NCBI RefSeq assembly: GCF_018199995.1
Contig: NZ_CP073578.1
Location: forward strand, 310,001-374,000
Length of the DNA: 64,000 nucleotides
Source: Photobacterium sp. GJ3
Lineage (GTDB): Bacteria > Pseudomonadota > Gammaproteobacteria > Enterobacterales > Vibrionaceae
Direction of reading: 5' to 3'
Part shown: positions 40,657 through 48,317 of the stretch, in pieces
Layout: the number at the start of each line of letters is the position of its first letter
Position numbering within the stretch: position 1 is the first letter of the stretch
Notes under the pieces: generated by a model
Told to the model about the DNA's origin: nothing
The model's database searches: none
Seen by the model: the letters and a program-made list of their open reading frames with translations, nothing else
Program-made: the position numbers and the translations under genes

Positions 40657-41669
40657 TCATCTCTGGCTTTTGTTATCCGCCGCTCAGTGCTGAGCGGCAG
40701 GATGCAGAATTGGCATTGGGAGCTTCGGGTGAACTGACGTTGCGTTGCGGGGAATACACCACACAATGTGCGGCCTCGCGTGCGCAGCTGACTGAGCCGT
40801 TAGGAAATCTGCCTGCATCGGTGACATTTCCGGATGGCTGGTTGTTTAAACCCAGCGATGATCGGGTTCTGAAGAGATGGATCGCGCAGCATGCGCCACA
40901 ACGGAACCGTTGGGTGCACCGGCTGGAGCGCCACTGGCTGGCGATCCTGCTCAGTATCATGCTGACGGTACTGGCGGGTCTGGGAGGGTTCCGTTATGGC
41001 ATTCCTGCGGCGAGTCATTATTTTGCCCGGATGTTGCCACAAGCAGTGCCTGTCTATCTTGGTGAAAATGTCCTTGAGATCTTAGATGCGCATCTTTTCG
41101 AGCCGTCGGATCTGACGGAACCGGAGCAATGGGAGATTCGTGACCGGTTTGCTTTGTTGCAGGACAATTTGCCCGCTTTACCGGTTGAGCCGAAGATCGT
41201 GTTTCGCACTTGGGAGCATGGCCCCAACGCCTTTGCATTGAGTGACGGGACCATTGTCGTGATGGATTCGCTGGTTGAGCTGGCAACGACACCTGCTGAA
41301 CTGGACAGTGTGCTGCTGCATGAAGTCGGCCATGTGTACCACCAGCATGTGATGGAAGCAGTGGTTCAGTCGGCCCTGTTATCTGTCTCGGTTGCGCTCC
41401 TGACCGGGGAAAGTTCAGGTCTGGTGGATAACCTGACCGGTACCGGCGTTTTTATTGCGTCTTCCGGTTACTCCCGGAATGCCGAGCGCGAGGCGGACCG
41501 TTTCGCTGCCGAGCAGATGATCCGGCAGTATGGTTCAACAGCGCCCATGGTGGCGATGTTCAATCGTTTCATGGAGCACGATGGTGACAGCGAGCTGCCG
41601 GCGTGGTTGCAAAGTCACCCGGAGCTCTCTGAGCGTATTCAGAGCCTTCAGCAAACATCCCGCGATTAA
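40653..41669 (+). CDS. M48-family zinc metallopeptidase, membrane-anchored
   Basis: 338 residues. One membrane helix (about 95-115) precedes a gluzincin domain with HEVGH (223-227) and the downstream zinc ligand in EREAD (E278). The soluble N-terminal 90 residues are Cys-poor and of unknown fold. It is translationally coupled to yjgN (ATGA overlap). By analogy with HtpX and LoiP it may act in envelope quality control; substrate unknown. Its terminator at 41676-41701 has been invaded by MITE copy C. Confidence 0.87.
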   Translation: MIISGFCYPPLSAERQDAELALGASGELTLRCGEYTTQCAASRAQLTEPLGNLPASVTFPDGWLFKPSDDRVLKRWIAQHAPQRNRWVHRLERHWLAILLSIMLTVLAGLGGFRYGIPAASHYFARMLPQAVPVYLGENVLEILDAHLFEPSDLTEPEQWEIRDRFALLQDNLPALPVEPKIVFRTWEHGPNAFALSDGTIVVMDSLVELATTPAELDSVLLHEVGHVYHQHVMEAVVQSALLSVSVALLTGESSGLVDNLTGTGVFIASSGYSRNAEREADRFAAEQMIRQYGSTAPMVAMFNRFMEHDGDSELPAWLQSHPELSERIQSLQQTSRD

Positions 41670-41701: not shown

Positions 41702-41702
41702 A

Positions 41703-41862
41703 TACCAATCGCAGTAAATAACTGATCATCCTAGCTTGTTAAAATGTTCGATAACTGCGTTAGATTTTTTGATTGTAGAATAACTACTTATCTAAAAAAT
41801 CTGCCTTGTTCTCAAACATTTTTCCTGCGCTATTTTTGATCACTGACTTACTTTGATTGGTA
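41703..41862 (+). mobile_element. MITE-like 160-bp hairpin element, copy C
   Basis: 160 bp from TACCAATC to GATTGGTA, same orientation as copies A and B. Flanks are TTA (41700-41702) and TTT (41863-41865), so the target duplication is imperfect here. It sits between the M48 gene and the candidate RiPP operon. Confidence 0.86.
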
Positions 41863-42015
41863 TTTTTGATTCCTTTCTATTTTCGTCTTCCTGCTTTTCA
41901 GCTCAAATCTAATTTCTTGTGCAATGACATGAGGAAAAACATTTCAACCTGTGAAAACGGTCAAAAGCAATTTATTGCATCGTTGTTTCTATCGGTTTGA
42001 AAGTTAGTCTCCGGT

Positions 42016-42044: not shown

Positions 42045-42064
42045 AATCACAGGAAGAACGCTCA

Positions 42065-42514
42065 ATGAAAAAACAAATGACACTGGCCTCAATGCTGTCC
42101 ACTTTTGCTGCCGCTGAAGCACAGGCAAGCTTGCAGCAGGAAGCTGAAAGCCGAGGTGCAGATTTCCATGACACGGCGGTTTTGGACAAGACGGTGATTG
42201 TGTCCAACGAAGCCTTGCTGGCGACCTTACTCAAAATTCGCGATGCGAAACGAGAAGGGACGCATCACGGCATTGTGATCCCGGGGTTACCGGGGGGCAA
42301 TGGCTGTGAAGCTTGTGGTACTTACTCTCAGGGAGGAACCTATACCCAGACCGCAAATACAGATCATTACATTCAGCACGATCATTACGATCCGGACGGA
42401 CGGATCCTGGACCATGACTTTCACCGTATTAACGAAGTTGCCCTCCGGGAAATACTGGAAGCCCGGGTCGGCCTTAATCTGGAAGCCTTATTTGAAGCGC
42501 CCAAAATGCAGTAA
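42065..42514 (+). CDS. candidate RiPP precursor / modification substrate
   Basis: 149 residues, ATG 42065 with AGGAAG about eight bases ahead. I do not recognise a known family. The first 65 residues are helical and polar, leader-like. Then comes Gly-rich IPGLPGGNGCEACGTYSQ with Cys81 and Cys84. Three Tyr-x-Gln motifs follow: Y87-S-Q89, Y93-T-Q95 and Y102-I-Q104. Next is a His/Asp/Tyr-rich run, HDHYDPDGRILDHDFHR (105-121), and a final amphipathic helix. Its TAA overlaps the ATG of the radical SAM gene by one base. Position, leader-like N-terminus and repeated aromatic-x-polar triads suggest it is the substrate of the next two enzymes. It is long for a precursor, so an accessory protein is the alternative. 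Confidence 0.55.
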   Translation: MKKQMTLASMLSTFAAAEAQASLQQEAESRGADFHDTAVLDKTVIVSNEALLATLLKIRDAKREGTHHGIVIPGLPGGNGCEACGTYSQGGTYTQTANTDHYIQHDHYDPDGRILDHDFHRINEVALREILEARVGLNLEALFEAPKMQ

Positions 42515-43632
42515 TGACCATGCATTTGAAGCGTTTAGATATCATTGTGAAGGTTGCATCCCGGTGCAACCTTGATTGTACGTATTGTCATTGGTTCCGC
42601 GATCCGGAAGTGCTCCGGTTGCCGAAAACATTGTCTCCGGCACTGGAAGAGATGCTGTTTGAAAAACTCGCGGCCTTGATTGCATCCCATCAACTGGAAC
42701 ACCTGAATCTGATTTTGCACGGGGGAGAGCCGTTACTGTTTGGATACCGGCGATTGGCGGCCTTTTTGCAAAAGGCGCAGCAACTGGCGACTCGCAGCGG
42801 GTGCCGGATTCGCTGCAATATCACCACCAATGGCGTGTTATTGAATGACCGTTTACTGAGTCTTTTCCGGCAGTTTCAGGTCGGGATTGCGATCAGTGTT
42901 GATGGCCCGAAGTCCGTGCATGACAAATACCGCATCACGGTGAATGGCAAAGGTTCTTACGACAAAGTGATAGAGGCCATTGACCGTTGCCGATCCGCAG
43001 GCATCGAACCGGCATTGCTGTGTGTGGCTGATCCTTCTGCGAGCGGAAAAGCGCTGGTGAAGTTTTTTGCCGACGAACTGGGCTCGAAGCGATTTGATTT
43101 TCTGATCCCCAATTTTACACGGGATGATGAAGGCGTCGCTTCGATCGCCCAATTTCATATCGAGGCTTTTGAGACCTGGTTTCATCATTATTGGCCAAAA
43201 GGCGTGGTTATCCGCCATTTGGAAGGGATGGTCGAAGGGCTGCTTGGGTTAACACCACAGATAGAAACGTTCGGGACCTCGAATGTTGCAGCAGTTGTGA
43301 TTCAGCCGGATGGCGCGATTGAACCGCATGATGTGCTGAGAATCTGCGGCCATGATGCCGTAGATACCGGGTTAAATCTGATGGATGATGCCATTGAAGC
43401 GATTTTTCAGCATCCGTTGTGGCTTACGCCTTTTCAGGCCAAGCGTCATTTGCCGGAGAACTGCAGGCAATGTGAGTTTTCGGCGTCTTGTGCCGGGGGC
43501 TATGTCATGCACCGTTACTCCAAAACCAATGGTTTTCATAACAGCAGCCTTTACTGTGAAGATATTCAACAGATCAGTCGGCATATCTATGACACGCTCT
43601 TATCCAGCATGTACGTTGAGGTGGAAGGATAA
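42514..43632 (+). CDS. radical SAM/SPASM peptide-modifying enzyme, FxsB-like
   Basis: 372 residues. Radical SAM cluster motif Cys18-x3-Cys22-x2-Cys25 (SRCNLDCTYCHWF), then LILHGGEPLLFG and ITTNGVLL, the SAM-binding blocks. The C-terminus has a SPASM-type auxiliary-cluster region: Cys317, Cys320, Cys326 (CRQCEFSASCAGGY) and Cys348 (FHNSSLYC), plus an earlier RICGHD. This arrangement resembles FxsB-type maturases, several of which make carbon-carbon crosslinks (cyclophanes) in ribosomal peptides. No separate RRE domain is seen. Start ATG 42514 (or 42520) overlaps the upstream stop, so expression is coupled to the candidate substrate. The reaction is inferred from the family. Confidence 0.85.
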   Translation: MTMHLKRLDIIVKVASRCNLDCTYCHWFRDPEVLRLPKTLSPALEEMLFEKLAALIASHQLEHLNLILHGGEPLLFGYRRLAAFLQKAQQLATRSGCRIRCNITTNGVLLNDRLLSLFRQFQVGIAISVDGPKSVHDKYRITVNGKGSYDKVIEAIDRCRSAGIEPALLCVADPSASGKALVKFFADELGSKRFDFLIPNFTRDDEGVASIAQFHIEAFETWFHHYWPKGVVIRHLEGMVEGLLGLTPQIETFGTSNVAAVVIQPDGAIEPHDVLRICGHDAVDTGLNLMDDAIEAIFQHPLWLTPFQAKRHLPENCRQCEFSASCAGGYVMHRYSKTNGFHNSSLYCEDIQQISRHIYDTLLSSMYVEVEG

Positions 43633-44935
43633 ATGACGCTTCGAAAAAATATGATTCGTGCATTCAGAAACACGATGAACCCGCCTCAGTTACCGGGTTC
43701 TTTTTTTGTCGACCTGTCCGGCAATGCAGAGATGCTGGACACTTTACTGCACTGGCATGAAAGAAAAACCGATTTTATGCTGAATTTTTTGTGTCAGCTG
43801 GCGGGGTATGAAAAGCACTGGATCCCGCAGCTGTTCAGCAACCAGAAAGCAGACGTTTATCGCGCCATGCCTTTTATTGCCTGGCTGGGGACACCCTGAA
43901 GCTGCTCGACGATCTGGAAGCGCAGCAAGTGCAATCCGACGTCATTCAACGGGCGGTACAACAGAGAATTGCGGTGTTGTTGCCCTTATTGCTGAAAGTG
44001 TTCGATCTGAACGTCCCGATTGAAGACATGCCAGTGGTGATTGAGCCAATCTTTTTACCCATCGGCAGCCGGTGGGGGCTGAAATTTCCGCAAGAACAGT
44101 CACTGACGATGACCATTCACGCCAATCAGGTGGTATTGAAAACACAAAGCGACGTCGTCTGTGTTTATCATGCAGAGACCGACTCGTTTGAGCTGTGTGA
44201 TGATCGTCTGGAGCGTTTCGAACGATTTTATCTTCTGGGTCAGATTGAAGTGATTCATCATCAGCACTGTCACATCCATGCGATGTCGAATAAAACGGGG
44301 GAAGATGACCTCAGTGTTGATCTGGCGACGATCCGGGATGAGCTCAATCACAGCTTTCAATTGCTTGCTTGTCTGTATGGCTCGGAAGGCATTCAAAAGT
44401 TAGTCGCGCTGAACAGAACGCTCGTAGTGAAGGTGCCTCAGGAATCGGGGTGGTTTAACAGTTCAAGTGGGTATCAATACCCTTTCTCCTGTTTTTTAAC
44501 AACCTATCCCAAGACCTGGATTAAATCTGCGGAGTCTATTTTGCATGAGACCATGCATATTCTGCTGGGCCTGTATCTGGAGTTTGAAGATTTATATCTC
44601 AACCCAGATGAGCAGCGGATTTATCGACATCCGTGGATGGATATTCCAAGGCCGATGCGGGGGTATTTCTCGGTGCCCATGCGTTCACCAATGTCTGTGA
44701 TTTTTATCGGCGGATTTTAGCCGACGAAGCGCTGTCTCAGACGCAAGCCTGGTGCAAAGATCAACTGTCCCTTCGGGTCAGCGAAGTTGCCCGCGCACTG
44801 GGTGAAATTCACGATCATGCTGATCTCACGGCTTCGGGGCTTCAATTCGTTTCCGGGTTAGATGCACTGTGGCTGCACGCCAGTCAAAGTCTGCCACAGC
44901 CTCATGCGCAGGTGCCGGCATTGACCGAGCGTTAA
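43633..44935 (+). pseudogene. HExxH-type putative peptide hydroxylase, two frameshifts
   Basis: Three overlapping frames read as one protein if one base is restored at each of two G runs: GGGG at 43887-43890 (frame MPFIAWLG joins DTLKLLDDL) and GGGGG at 44659-44663 (IPRPMRG joins VFLGAHAF). The restored product is 434 residues. It carries HETMH at 305-309 (44544-44558), followed by HPWMDIPRPMRG-VFLGAHAF. These are features of the HEXXH peptide-modification family found beside FxsB-like enzymes, later described as 2-oxoglutarate-dependent beta-hydroxylases. As given, the reading stops at codon 88, before the motif. Either it is a decaying gene, or both G runs were under-called. Start at 43633 is one base after the radical SAM stop. 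Confidence 0.72.
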
Positions 44936-45315: not shown

Positions 45316-48300
45316 ATGATCTCATTTTCAAATATCAGACAAGTTTTGATGCTCATGTCTGTGATTACTCTGGCTGCCTGTAAGGGTGGAGACAGGCAGT
45401 CAGAGCAGTCTCCTGCTGTCACCGCATCCACTCAGATTCAGGGACAGGTTTTTAAAGGGCCAGTGGCATATGCGACGGTACGCGCTTTTGATGCCATCGG
45501 AAATACGCTTGGTGAAACCGTAACCGAAGATAAAGGTTTTTATCGGCTGTCTCTGGATATGTCTTATCAGGGGGTGATCCGGATTACTGCCACCGGGGGA
45601 AATTACATTGATGAAGCAACCGGCGAACTCACGTCATTGACGGAAAGCATGAGCGCAGTGACCGTGCTGTCGGAAAGCGAAGCGGTGATGAACGTGACCT
45701 TGCTGACCGAGTTGGCGGCCCGTGAAGCCAATCTGGGGCTGTCGACGGATCGGGTCGCATGGGCAAATCGTCATATTGCGGAATCCATGGCATTGGATCT
45801 GGATATTGTGAGTGAAGCCCCCGTTGATTTGCTGGATACCGCACATCAGGGACAAGCCGGTCCTCATGTTGATTATGCGCTGGTTATTGCCGGGATGACG
45901 AAAATTGCACAGACTGAAGGCATCGGTCTTGGAGAAGTATTGAATGGTTTTCGTCAGGACTTTGCAGATAATGGCAATCTGGATGACCCTCAAGTGCTGA
46001 ATCGACTGCATGCGGGTATCAATAATTTTCTCGATTCTCCACTCAACCGGGTTGTACTGGACCGGAGTCAAACATCCAAAGACAAGGCGTTTTACCGCAA
46101 TACACCGCCAGTGGTAGAAAAACTCGCAGCGTCAACGCTGATAGAGGGGGCGTCTATGAAATTGCGCCTGAGATTACGGATAATGATAATCAAGGTGCAT
46201 TGCGGTATCAGTGGCAGCAAATCAGCGGTCCTGAGGTGCTCATGCAAGGGACTGAAACCGCTGCGGTTTCCATCAAAGTACCGGCACCAGAGACAAGTCA
46301 ATTCTTCGTGCTCAAATTAACGGTCACAGACGCTGAAGGCTTATCAACGGAACAGCACTATTCTTTTCGCATCTCTCCGGTTCCGGTGATTTCAGGCATC
46401 GCTTTTAAAGGTCCGTTAGCGGGTGCAAGGGTGATCATTTATCAGCCAGATGGGACGGTCATCGGAGAAGCGATCACCGCAACTGACGGTCGCTATCGCA
46501 TCAAGAATTATCAATTTTATGAAGGCATTATTATTGCTGAAGTGACGGGTGGCACATATGAAAGTGAGGCGACAGGTCAGTCCGTCACTCTGGAGCAGCC
46601 TCTCCAGGCTGCAACCGATACGTCTGCGGCCAGAATGACGACATTGAATATTACGCCGTTGACTGAACTCGCTGTTCGCCGGGCAAAAATGCTCGGGACA
46701 ATGCTGACGAAAAATACTATTGAGCAAGCGAATCGGGATATTGCGTTCGCCTTTGGTCTGCGTCGCAGCCTTGTTTTTTACCCGCCCACGAATTTGCTGG
46801 ATCCGTCGGGCATCTTCAGGAAAGGGGATAACACTGAGCATGCTTTAGCGATTGCAGCCATGATGGTTGCGATCAATACAAACGCGTACAGTTTAACCGA
46901 CTGGCTGGAAATGGTTTCCAGAGACTTGTCGGACGATGGCCGGCTGGATGATGTCAATCTGCAGAAAGTGCTGTACCAAGGGTTGAACGACTTTATCCGA
47001 TCGCCGTTGAATGTGCTTGGTGTGACCCCTGAAGACACACAGCTGGATGAGCGGTTTAGCGGGATCGCGCCGCCAGAAATTATTTCAGTGACGGGGAGCG
47101 ATGGTTTTGAGCGGCAACTGACTTCCGCGACGGTTCAGGTCAAAGACACTTCGGGTGTGAGCTATGACTGGTATCAGACTGAGGGTCCTCACGTCACGCT
47201 CTTTAATCGTGATAGCAGCCGTGTCACATTCAAACTTCCGAACATTGAAGAAAACTCGCCAGAAACGATCACATTGGCTGTCACGGTGGAAAACAGAGAC
47301 GGGCTGATGAGTTCATCGCAAATCACGCTACAGATCCAGCCCTATTCTGAGGTTGCGTTCGATAAAATTATCGATTCACAACTGCGTCGCTGTGTTGAGG
47401 ATCTTGCCCCGAAAGTTCGTGATATCGGGGATTTAAACCAGCTTGAATGTGGTCCTGATTATGCGGGGATCAGTCAGTTCGATGGCTTGGCACAATTTAC
47501 CCATCTGAATCATATCGGGGTGCTGGCGAAAAACCAGATCACGGATGTTTCCGCTTTGGTGTCATTGAGCACACTGAAAAGTCTGGCGCTTCAGCAAACG
47601 GTCATGACTGATTTGACTGTGCTGAAAGCGCTGACCAGCCTGACGGAGCTGGCTTTGACTCATAGTCCATGGCTGACCGATTTCAGTGCGCTGCCTCAAC
47701 TCACGCAACTGATCGGAATCAACTTGTATGGCACAGGCATCAGTGATGGTCATATTTTTCTGCAAATGAATGAGCTACAGAAAATTGCGATAGGGAACAC
47801 TCAGATCAGCGACTTCAGCTTTTTCAGGGAAAAGCCCAACCTGATTTCCCTCGAGCTTGCTGATTCAGGATTGACCCAGCTTGATCCCATCGGACTGGCG
47901 TATCAAACCGAATTAAAAACACTGGATATTTCGGGCAATCCACTGACAGATATTTCGGCCCTGTCAGGGTTGACGAAGTTGCAATGGGTGAACTTATCAG
48001 ACACCAATATCTCAATGTTGCCATCGCTGGAACAGTTGAGTGCATTAAGAAATGTGTATCTGAATCATACCCATGTCACCGATCTGTCTGCTTTGCGCGT
48101 GTTACCGGAACTCATGCAAATTTCTTTACAGGGCTTCAAGGGGACAGATATCAGCCCGTTGATTGACCTGAAGCAAAAGAGACGGTTCAGTGCTCTGTCA
48201 CGGGTTGATCTCACCGGTGCGGTTCATGTGCCTTGCTCGCAGATGACAACGCTCAAGCAATTGAATGTGAATATTTTTGTCGACGTGAACCCCGGCGTGA

Positions 48301-48317
48301 CTTGTACTGCGGATTAA
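45316..48317 (+). pseudogene. internalin-like leucine-rich-repeat lipoprotein, one frameshift
   Basis: If one base is restored in GGGGG (46146-46150), 1000 codons are read without interruption; as given, the frame ends at 46320 and resumes in another frame. Start ATG 45316 has GGAAGA upstream. Order of parts: lipoprotein signal with lipobox LAAC (Cys about 23); a carboxypeptidase-regulatory-like domain (GQVFKGPVAYATVRAF); a helical segment; an Ig/PKD-like stretch (RYQWQQISGPEV); a second copy of the same two modules (AFKGPLAGARVIIYQ); another Ig-like domain; then about ten 22-residue leucine-rich repeats of the internalin type (L-x-x-L-x-L-x-x-T-x-I-x-D). Likely a surface adhesin or binding protein; a ligand cannot be named. 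Confidence 0.78.

Follow-up and report, generated by a model that had tools for sequence, protein, structure and literature searches.

The window, that is, the whole stretch of 64,000 nucleotides of Photobacterium sp. GJ3 DNA analysed here, comes from a genome of 5.31 Mb assembled in three contigs and rated 99.99% complete. It contains a compact set of three genes running in the same direction, encoding a 149-aa protein, a radical SAM protein of 372 aa and an HExxH protein (Table 1). The 149-aa frame opens with an ATG, its stop codon overlaps the radical SAM frame by one base (at 42514), and the ATG of the HExxH gene directly abuts the radical SAM stop codon (a zero-base junction at 43633). 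The three genes are, as an earlier note on this DNA had described them, co-directional and touching or overlapping; they are translationally coupled, and junctions of this kind point to joint production of the three proteins. Promoter and terminator scans gave about as many sites as shuffled sequences do, or fewer. The same note reported that neither a transporter nor a protease gene lay next to the operon. No transporter gene adjoins it, but an M48 peptidase gene ends at position 41669, about 400 bp upstream. This peptidase is probably unrelated to the operon, because relatives of the same genus retain the M48 gene without it; the DUF898/M48 gene pair was considered for membership of the operon and dropped, since relatives retain the pair in the absence of the operon.

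Table 1. Features of the operon and its upstream flank (positions in the window).
Feature	Position	Strand	Basis or remark
MITE-like imperfect palindrome, about 162 bp	41702..41863		own-genome copies; folding z -4.67
Likely ribosome-binding site, AGGAAG	42051..42056	+	read from sequence
Putative precursor, 149 aa, orphan	42065..42514	+	open frame, coding-like codon use
Putative core, residues 85-121	42317..42427	+	motifs YSQ, YTQ, YIQ, HYD, FHR; proposed role
Radical SAM protein with four-Cys C-terminal set, cyclophane-synthase group (YhhB/FxsB/ChlB)	42514..43632	+	profiles, ChlB alignment
HExxH gene, first piece (88 aa)	43633..43899	+	up to first frame break, at G run; no family match alone
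HExxH gene, second piece, with HETMH	43929..44720	+	TIGR04267 profile 2-110
HExxH gene, third piece	44633..44935	+	TIGR04267 profile 108-177

The radical SAM protein carries the CxxxCxxC motif in the form CNLDCTYC and, towards its C terminus, a CxxC-x5-C set followed by a later YC; both the motif and these four cysteines have aligned counterparts in ChlB, and the cysteine content recorded in the earlier note was thus accurate. A CxxxCxxC core combined with the SPASM-like C-terminal cysteines of the YhhB/FxsB/XyeB/ChlB group is the pattern of triceptide-type enzymes. The best NCBIfam model is that of YhhB (266.7 bits, cut-off 445), ahead of FxsB (248.4 bits, cut-off 370), XyeB (182.6 bits, cut-off 450) and a sulfatase-maturase model (154.6 bits), and the best solved relative is ChlB (183.6 bits), two sulfatase maturases scoring 80.6 and 80.3 bits. 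No cut-off was exceeded among the 25 best families listed, and the protein is not filed as YhhB, FxsB or XyeB because it scores below all three curated cut-offs. The label "FxsB-like" given to it previously therefore names the right group but not its closest member, YhhB scoring higher and both cut-offs being missed. Given the cysteines aligned with ChlB and the best-scoring models, the protein is assigned by sequence to the cyclophane-forming YhhB/FxsB/ChlB group.

Its nearest relatives, 38 and 36% identical to it, come from two genomes of a single genus that belongs to the same phylum; a tree of 19 rows, with long branches, groups them with it at 93/93 support. The search that yielded them found 7 of 398 genomes, own included, at E 1e-40 or better; at E 1e-20 or better, the family search found 143 of 296, with 6.5e-42 as the best value besides the genome itself. 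No nearer relative was found in the family (296 genomes), the class (3 of 369, own included) or the order (4 of 187, own included), all of these sets being samples of larger groups. A contig scan retrieved only three distant radical SAM proteins, and a scan of viral contigs with two radical SAM proteins found none.

The 149-aa protein has no credible family in Pfam, NCBIfam or PHROGs, and searches of 295 other Vibrionaceae genomes (from a set holding one genome per species) brought up no credible relative. Nothing usable was found in 98 other relatives, and there was no relative in plasmid records, in viral contigs or among PDB sequences. A few low-scoring matches were taken as chance: two in Vibrionaceae besides the genome itself (E 0.013 and 0.096), one to an FEA1-related NCBIfam model (E 0.0066, 15.2 bits against a cut-off of 250) and several in PHROGs (best E 0.028). 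Compared with the precursors of eight relatives, the protein gave p values from 0.0055 (HaaA, leader part) to 0.84, a weak signal for eight tests. The database search thus upholds the earlier statement that this protein belongs to no known family, without turning up a known non-substrate family, and on these searches the putative precursor is new to every set searched.

The composition of the 149-aa protein draws attention to its middle part, which includes a His/Asp-rich stretch and in which residues 85-121, the putative core, contain all four tyrosines and five of the eight histidines. All of the tyrosines fall between residues 87 and 108, with YSQ, YTQ and YIQ accounting for three of them, and the five histidines lie within residues 101-120. 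A YxQ motif occurring three times was reached by 0.04% of shuffles, but it can be considered only suggestive because some aromatic-x-residue pair recurs three times in 19% of shuffles. Together with HYD and FHR, these are the aromatic-x-x motifs beside the enzyme gene; they come from a single sequence that has no homologues, so that no conservation of the motifs is shown. The C terminus is EAPKMQ, and the earlier remark that the substrate lacks an FxSxx ending is correct. A structure model built from the single sequence is too poor to rely on, its mean pLDDT being 47.8 and 85 of the 149 residues falling below 50; in it, residues 48-64 and 124-135 appear as helices and residues 87-91, 101-108 and 114-122 as strands. 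If real, the modelled strands might form a hairpin in the proposed core, which would speak somewhat against a loose core. Residues 108-114 (42386-42406) read YDPDGRI, resembling the YDxxGRL core of RHS/YD repeats, and no Pfam family matches this segment at E 1.

The third gene belongs, by its profile match, to the alpha-ketoglutarate peptide beta-hydroxylase family (TIGR04267). Its second piece, which holds the HExxH motif, scores 56.2 bits (cut-off 40), and its third piece, taken alone, 30.6 bits, below the cut-off. The second piece matches the solved radical SAM/HExxH protein 22nu weakly (E 0.003), with alignment of HETMH and of the PW and RP-G residues. The histidine after RP-x-x-G was tried as a third metal ligand and set aside, being inconstant across the family. 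As assembled, the gene is not intact, two frame breaks dividing it into three frames, so that the HExxH protein of the earlier note is confirmed as to family but not as a single open frame. According to the codon-use model, coding shifts into another frame near 43887 and again near 44647, each time across a gap of just a few bases; codon use is gene-like across both breaks, and the nearby G runs, GGGG and GGGGG, are no more than 12 bases away.

Similar breaks occur elsewhere in the same genome. In 20 stretches (400 kb) of it, the codon-use model flagged 53 frame changes on the same strand, many of them resembling the usual passage from one gene to its neighbour; 11 of the 53 were picked from the list without sight of the sequence, and inspection of their junctions led to the acceptance of eight as breaks within a gene. 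The three dropped were a junction of two genes, a case with an antisense-looking 21-aa piece and an unclear case. The accepted breaks fall in genes named by eye as those for a TonB receptor, an NtrC-type regulator, alanine dehydrogenase, a peptide synthetase, a DnaK-like chaperone, a purine permease, PTS EIIC and filamentous haemagglutinin. All eight have the same shift sense, as do three breaks in the window (two in the HExxH gene, one in an LRR gene). Seven of the eight lie within 12 bases of a G/C run of at least four and the remaining one within 13, distances that cover 9.9 and 10.5% of bases, respectively; the count rests on 11 of 53 sampled changes plus 2 of 11 changes listed in the window, and the remainder could alter it. 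The LRR gene (45316-48317) is split at a G run and corresponds to one frame of 995 aa in a relative (G103); 264 of 344 alignment columns are identical, and a second gap, of six bases, keeps the frame. The breaks in the HExxH gene are read as assembly errors because they occur at G runs with the same shift sense as the eight accepted breaks. It seems that G/C runs tend to be called one base short in this assembly, and the HExxH gene is probably intact in life. Homopolymer errors can make a working biosynthetic gene look dead in a genome rated as nearly complete; if the breaks were real, the hydroxylase would be dead.

The site of the operon differs between relatives. Six same-genus loci were compared; L109 stops short of valS, and the gene order of L113 is different. 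In the other four (L108, L110, L111 and L112), there is no RiPP operon from the M48 gene to valS, and this interval holds no LRR gene (L110 and L112), one (L111) or two (L108). Neither the 149-aa protein, nor the radical SAM protein, nor the second HExxH piece matched anything in any of the six loci. As none of the relatives compared has the operon at this position, it seems to have been added recently or sporadically to a site that varies, adjoining a repeat element. The latter, a MITE-like palindrome that is probably not part of the pathway, has at least 40 matches of 91-100% identity in the Photobacterium genome, counting itself; of 74 candidates from a first look, 40 were scored.

Radical SAM relatives elsewhere are also preceded by short frames, which were picked by eye as precursor-like and range from 37 to 100 aa. 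In the two nearest relatives (L064 and L065), these end in repeats of the FRRGGF type (repeated aromatic-x-Arg); the corresponding frame has HGS/HAS/HLS repeats in L066 and reads SYPQCGWTLFSRCP in L107. A plasmid search with one relative's precursor gave no match. Nineteen loci were scanned for the HExxH family, amounting to 18 distinct ones because L042 and L103 share the same stretch of one plasmid. A HExxH gene or domain accompanies the radical SAM relative in 4 of the 18, with TIGR04267 scores (cut-off 40) of 70.7 bits in L041, 132.3 in L102, 73.3 in L066 and 60.2 in L068, L041 and L102 being in the training set of the profile used for the scan. None was found in the nearest relatives, L064 and L065, within the stretch examined. 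Vibrio echinoideorum has an annotated yhhA-yhhB-yhhC set, Rhizobium etli a YhhB-annotated protein with a C-terminal TIGR04267 domain (132.3 bits), and another genome of the same genus as V. echinoideorum (G243) a trio of short candidate precursor, radical SAM and HExxH genes. The pairing, fused or separate, is therefore not peculiar to the Photobacterium locus, and on sequence evidence it is found in other Proteobacteria, beyond the Actinobacteria from which, according to the earlier note, FxsB-like systems are mostly described. The same neighbours do recur in other genomes as far as the two enzymes are concerned, but not for the 149-aa protein.

Several characterized systems resemble the operon in part. 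FxsA precursors end in FxSxx-COOH. The likeness to the FxsA/FxsB and HaaA systems lies in the FxsB score of the radical SAM protein, but the FxsB cut-off is missed and the 149-aa protein lacks the FxSxx end. In YhhA/YhhB triceptide systems, annotated in R. etli and V. echinoideorum, the enzyme likewise comes directly after the precursor and is followed by an oxygenase gene or domain; the Photobacterium enzyme differs in scoring well below the YhhB cut-off. The YhhA peptides of L102 and L103 have 59 and 47 aa with C-terminal YDR/HxR motifs, in contrast to the 149 aa and mid-protein YxQ motifs of the Photobacterium precursor; a C-terminal core of the YDRxHxRHNR kind is present in L102 and L103 and absent from the 149-aa protein. 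The comparison with ChlB/ChlBH covers the two enzymes, which belong to the same families, ChlBH being fused whereas the radical SAM and HExxH genes are separate in Photobacterium. The HExxH part of ChlBH is described as acting after a cyclophane has been installed in the peptide, where it hydroxylates Asp and His (PMC12636437). In Pseudomonas, PflC/PosC belong to the same HExxH family and act on a RiPP precursor (PMC12636437). No protease gene is reported near the pfl cluster either, and the gene list given for it differs in having an MNIO-nitroreductase and no radical SAM enzyme (PMC12636437). The cross-links named in the cited passages of a review include those joining Trp to Arg, Asn or Asp and Phe to Asn or Ser, as well as Tyr-Asp (YxdB), His-Ala (HaaB), and Tyr-Arg and His-Arg (YhhB); a Tyr-Gln pair is absent from them (PMC11002830). 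A literature search found no paper on the Photobacterium locus, which is no proof of absence in print.

Taken together, these observations are probably best explained by a RiPP operon of the triceptide kind, acquired horizontally, with the 149-aa protein as its precursor. Residues 1 to about 84 of this protein would serve as the leader. The radical SAM enzyme would abstract a hydrogen from the C-beta of the residue two positions past an aromatic residue and bond that carbon to the ring, forming three-residue cyclophanes in the central segment, most likely at Y87-Q89, Y93-Q95 and Y102-Q104, or at the His motifs. The HExxH protein would then beta-hydroxylate the cross-linked region, probably at Asp or His within residues 100-120, and the C-terminal 28 residues may act as a follower or be trimmed by a housekeeping protease.

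A maturase of the sulfatase type, activating the active site of an enzyme instead of making a peptide product, would belong to the same superfamily, and the radical SAM protein does score on the corresponding model. This is nonetheless highly improbable, as the YhhB and FxsB models score more than 90 bits better, ChlB scores about 100 bits better than a solved sulfatase maturase, and no sulfatase was found among the nine frames and pieces scanned. The 149-aa protein could instead act as a partner, or be a small folded protein without relation to the pathway, in which case the precursor proper would be encoded elsewhere or in an unlisted short frame. Its length, greater than that of the candidate precursors seen beside relatives, its lack of homologues and the strands drawn in its middle by the poor structure model would fit such a role, which is nevertheless quite unlikely for a gene that sits where annotated relatives have their precursor, is translationally coupled to the enzyme gene and encodes clustered Tyr/His motifs.

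The operon might also be decaying, with a HExxH gene that is truly broken and the radical SAM step alone, or none, still working. The two breaks in the assembled gene, the adjoining repeat element, the lack of a precursor relative in the 295 other Vibrionaceae genomes and the lack of a close radical SAM relative in the family sample are all compatible with decay. Set against this are the gene-like codon use across both breaks, the common shift sense of the eight accepted breaks and their position near G/C runs, and the neighbouring LRR gene, which is split at a G run yet forms a single frame in G103; decay appears unlikely.

The reading of the locus as a triceptide-type operon places the novelty in the precursor, the enzymes being, by their profiles, of known kind, and the 149-aa protein is best read as a new triceptide-like RiPP precursor family. 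Of the undescribed peptide class proposed in the earlier note, the orphan substrate and the RiPP-type operon hold as the best reading, but the pairing of the two enzymes is not in itself peculiar. A more specific proposal, that of a new triceptide class with a long precursor whose core is flanked by a leader and a C-terminal follower, and with Tyr-x-Gln cyclophanes followed by stand-alone HExxH beta-hydroxylation, is tentative and rather doubtful. If modified as proposed, the 149-aa protein would provide cyclophane-forming radical SAM enzymes with a new substrate family and possibly with Gln as a new partner residue. The locus would also represent a gammaproteobacterial system with a separate HExxH hydroxylase, in which cross-linking and hydroxylation could be studied separately, unlike in the fused ChlBH.

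Other loci with TIGR04267 proteins were observed. The Photobacterium genome has a second HExxH locus (L045, 5133-7717; about 1664132-1666716 of contig C2), consisting of a 25-aa frame, MKKLDEKKVFSLRKKSTPCLKNVSN, a 419-aa MFS-type transporter and a 341-aa TIGR04267 protein, with no recognised radical SAM gene beside it; the arrangement resembles that of a very small RiPP precursor served by a single hydroxylase and an exporter. A related 25-aa stretch occurs in frames of 45, 25 and 37 aa in L044, L050 and L051, which also hold a TIGR04267 protein and a transporter-like gene (the transporter was tested in L044 and L050). In a genome of the same genus as V. echinoideorum (G188; L053, 6310-8658), a 74-aa frame that contains FFS-ENRSMMGGWTIDRD twice, in near-identical copies, is followed by a TIGR04267 protein of 277 aa and a transporter-like protein of 407 aa.
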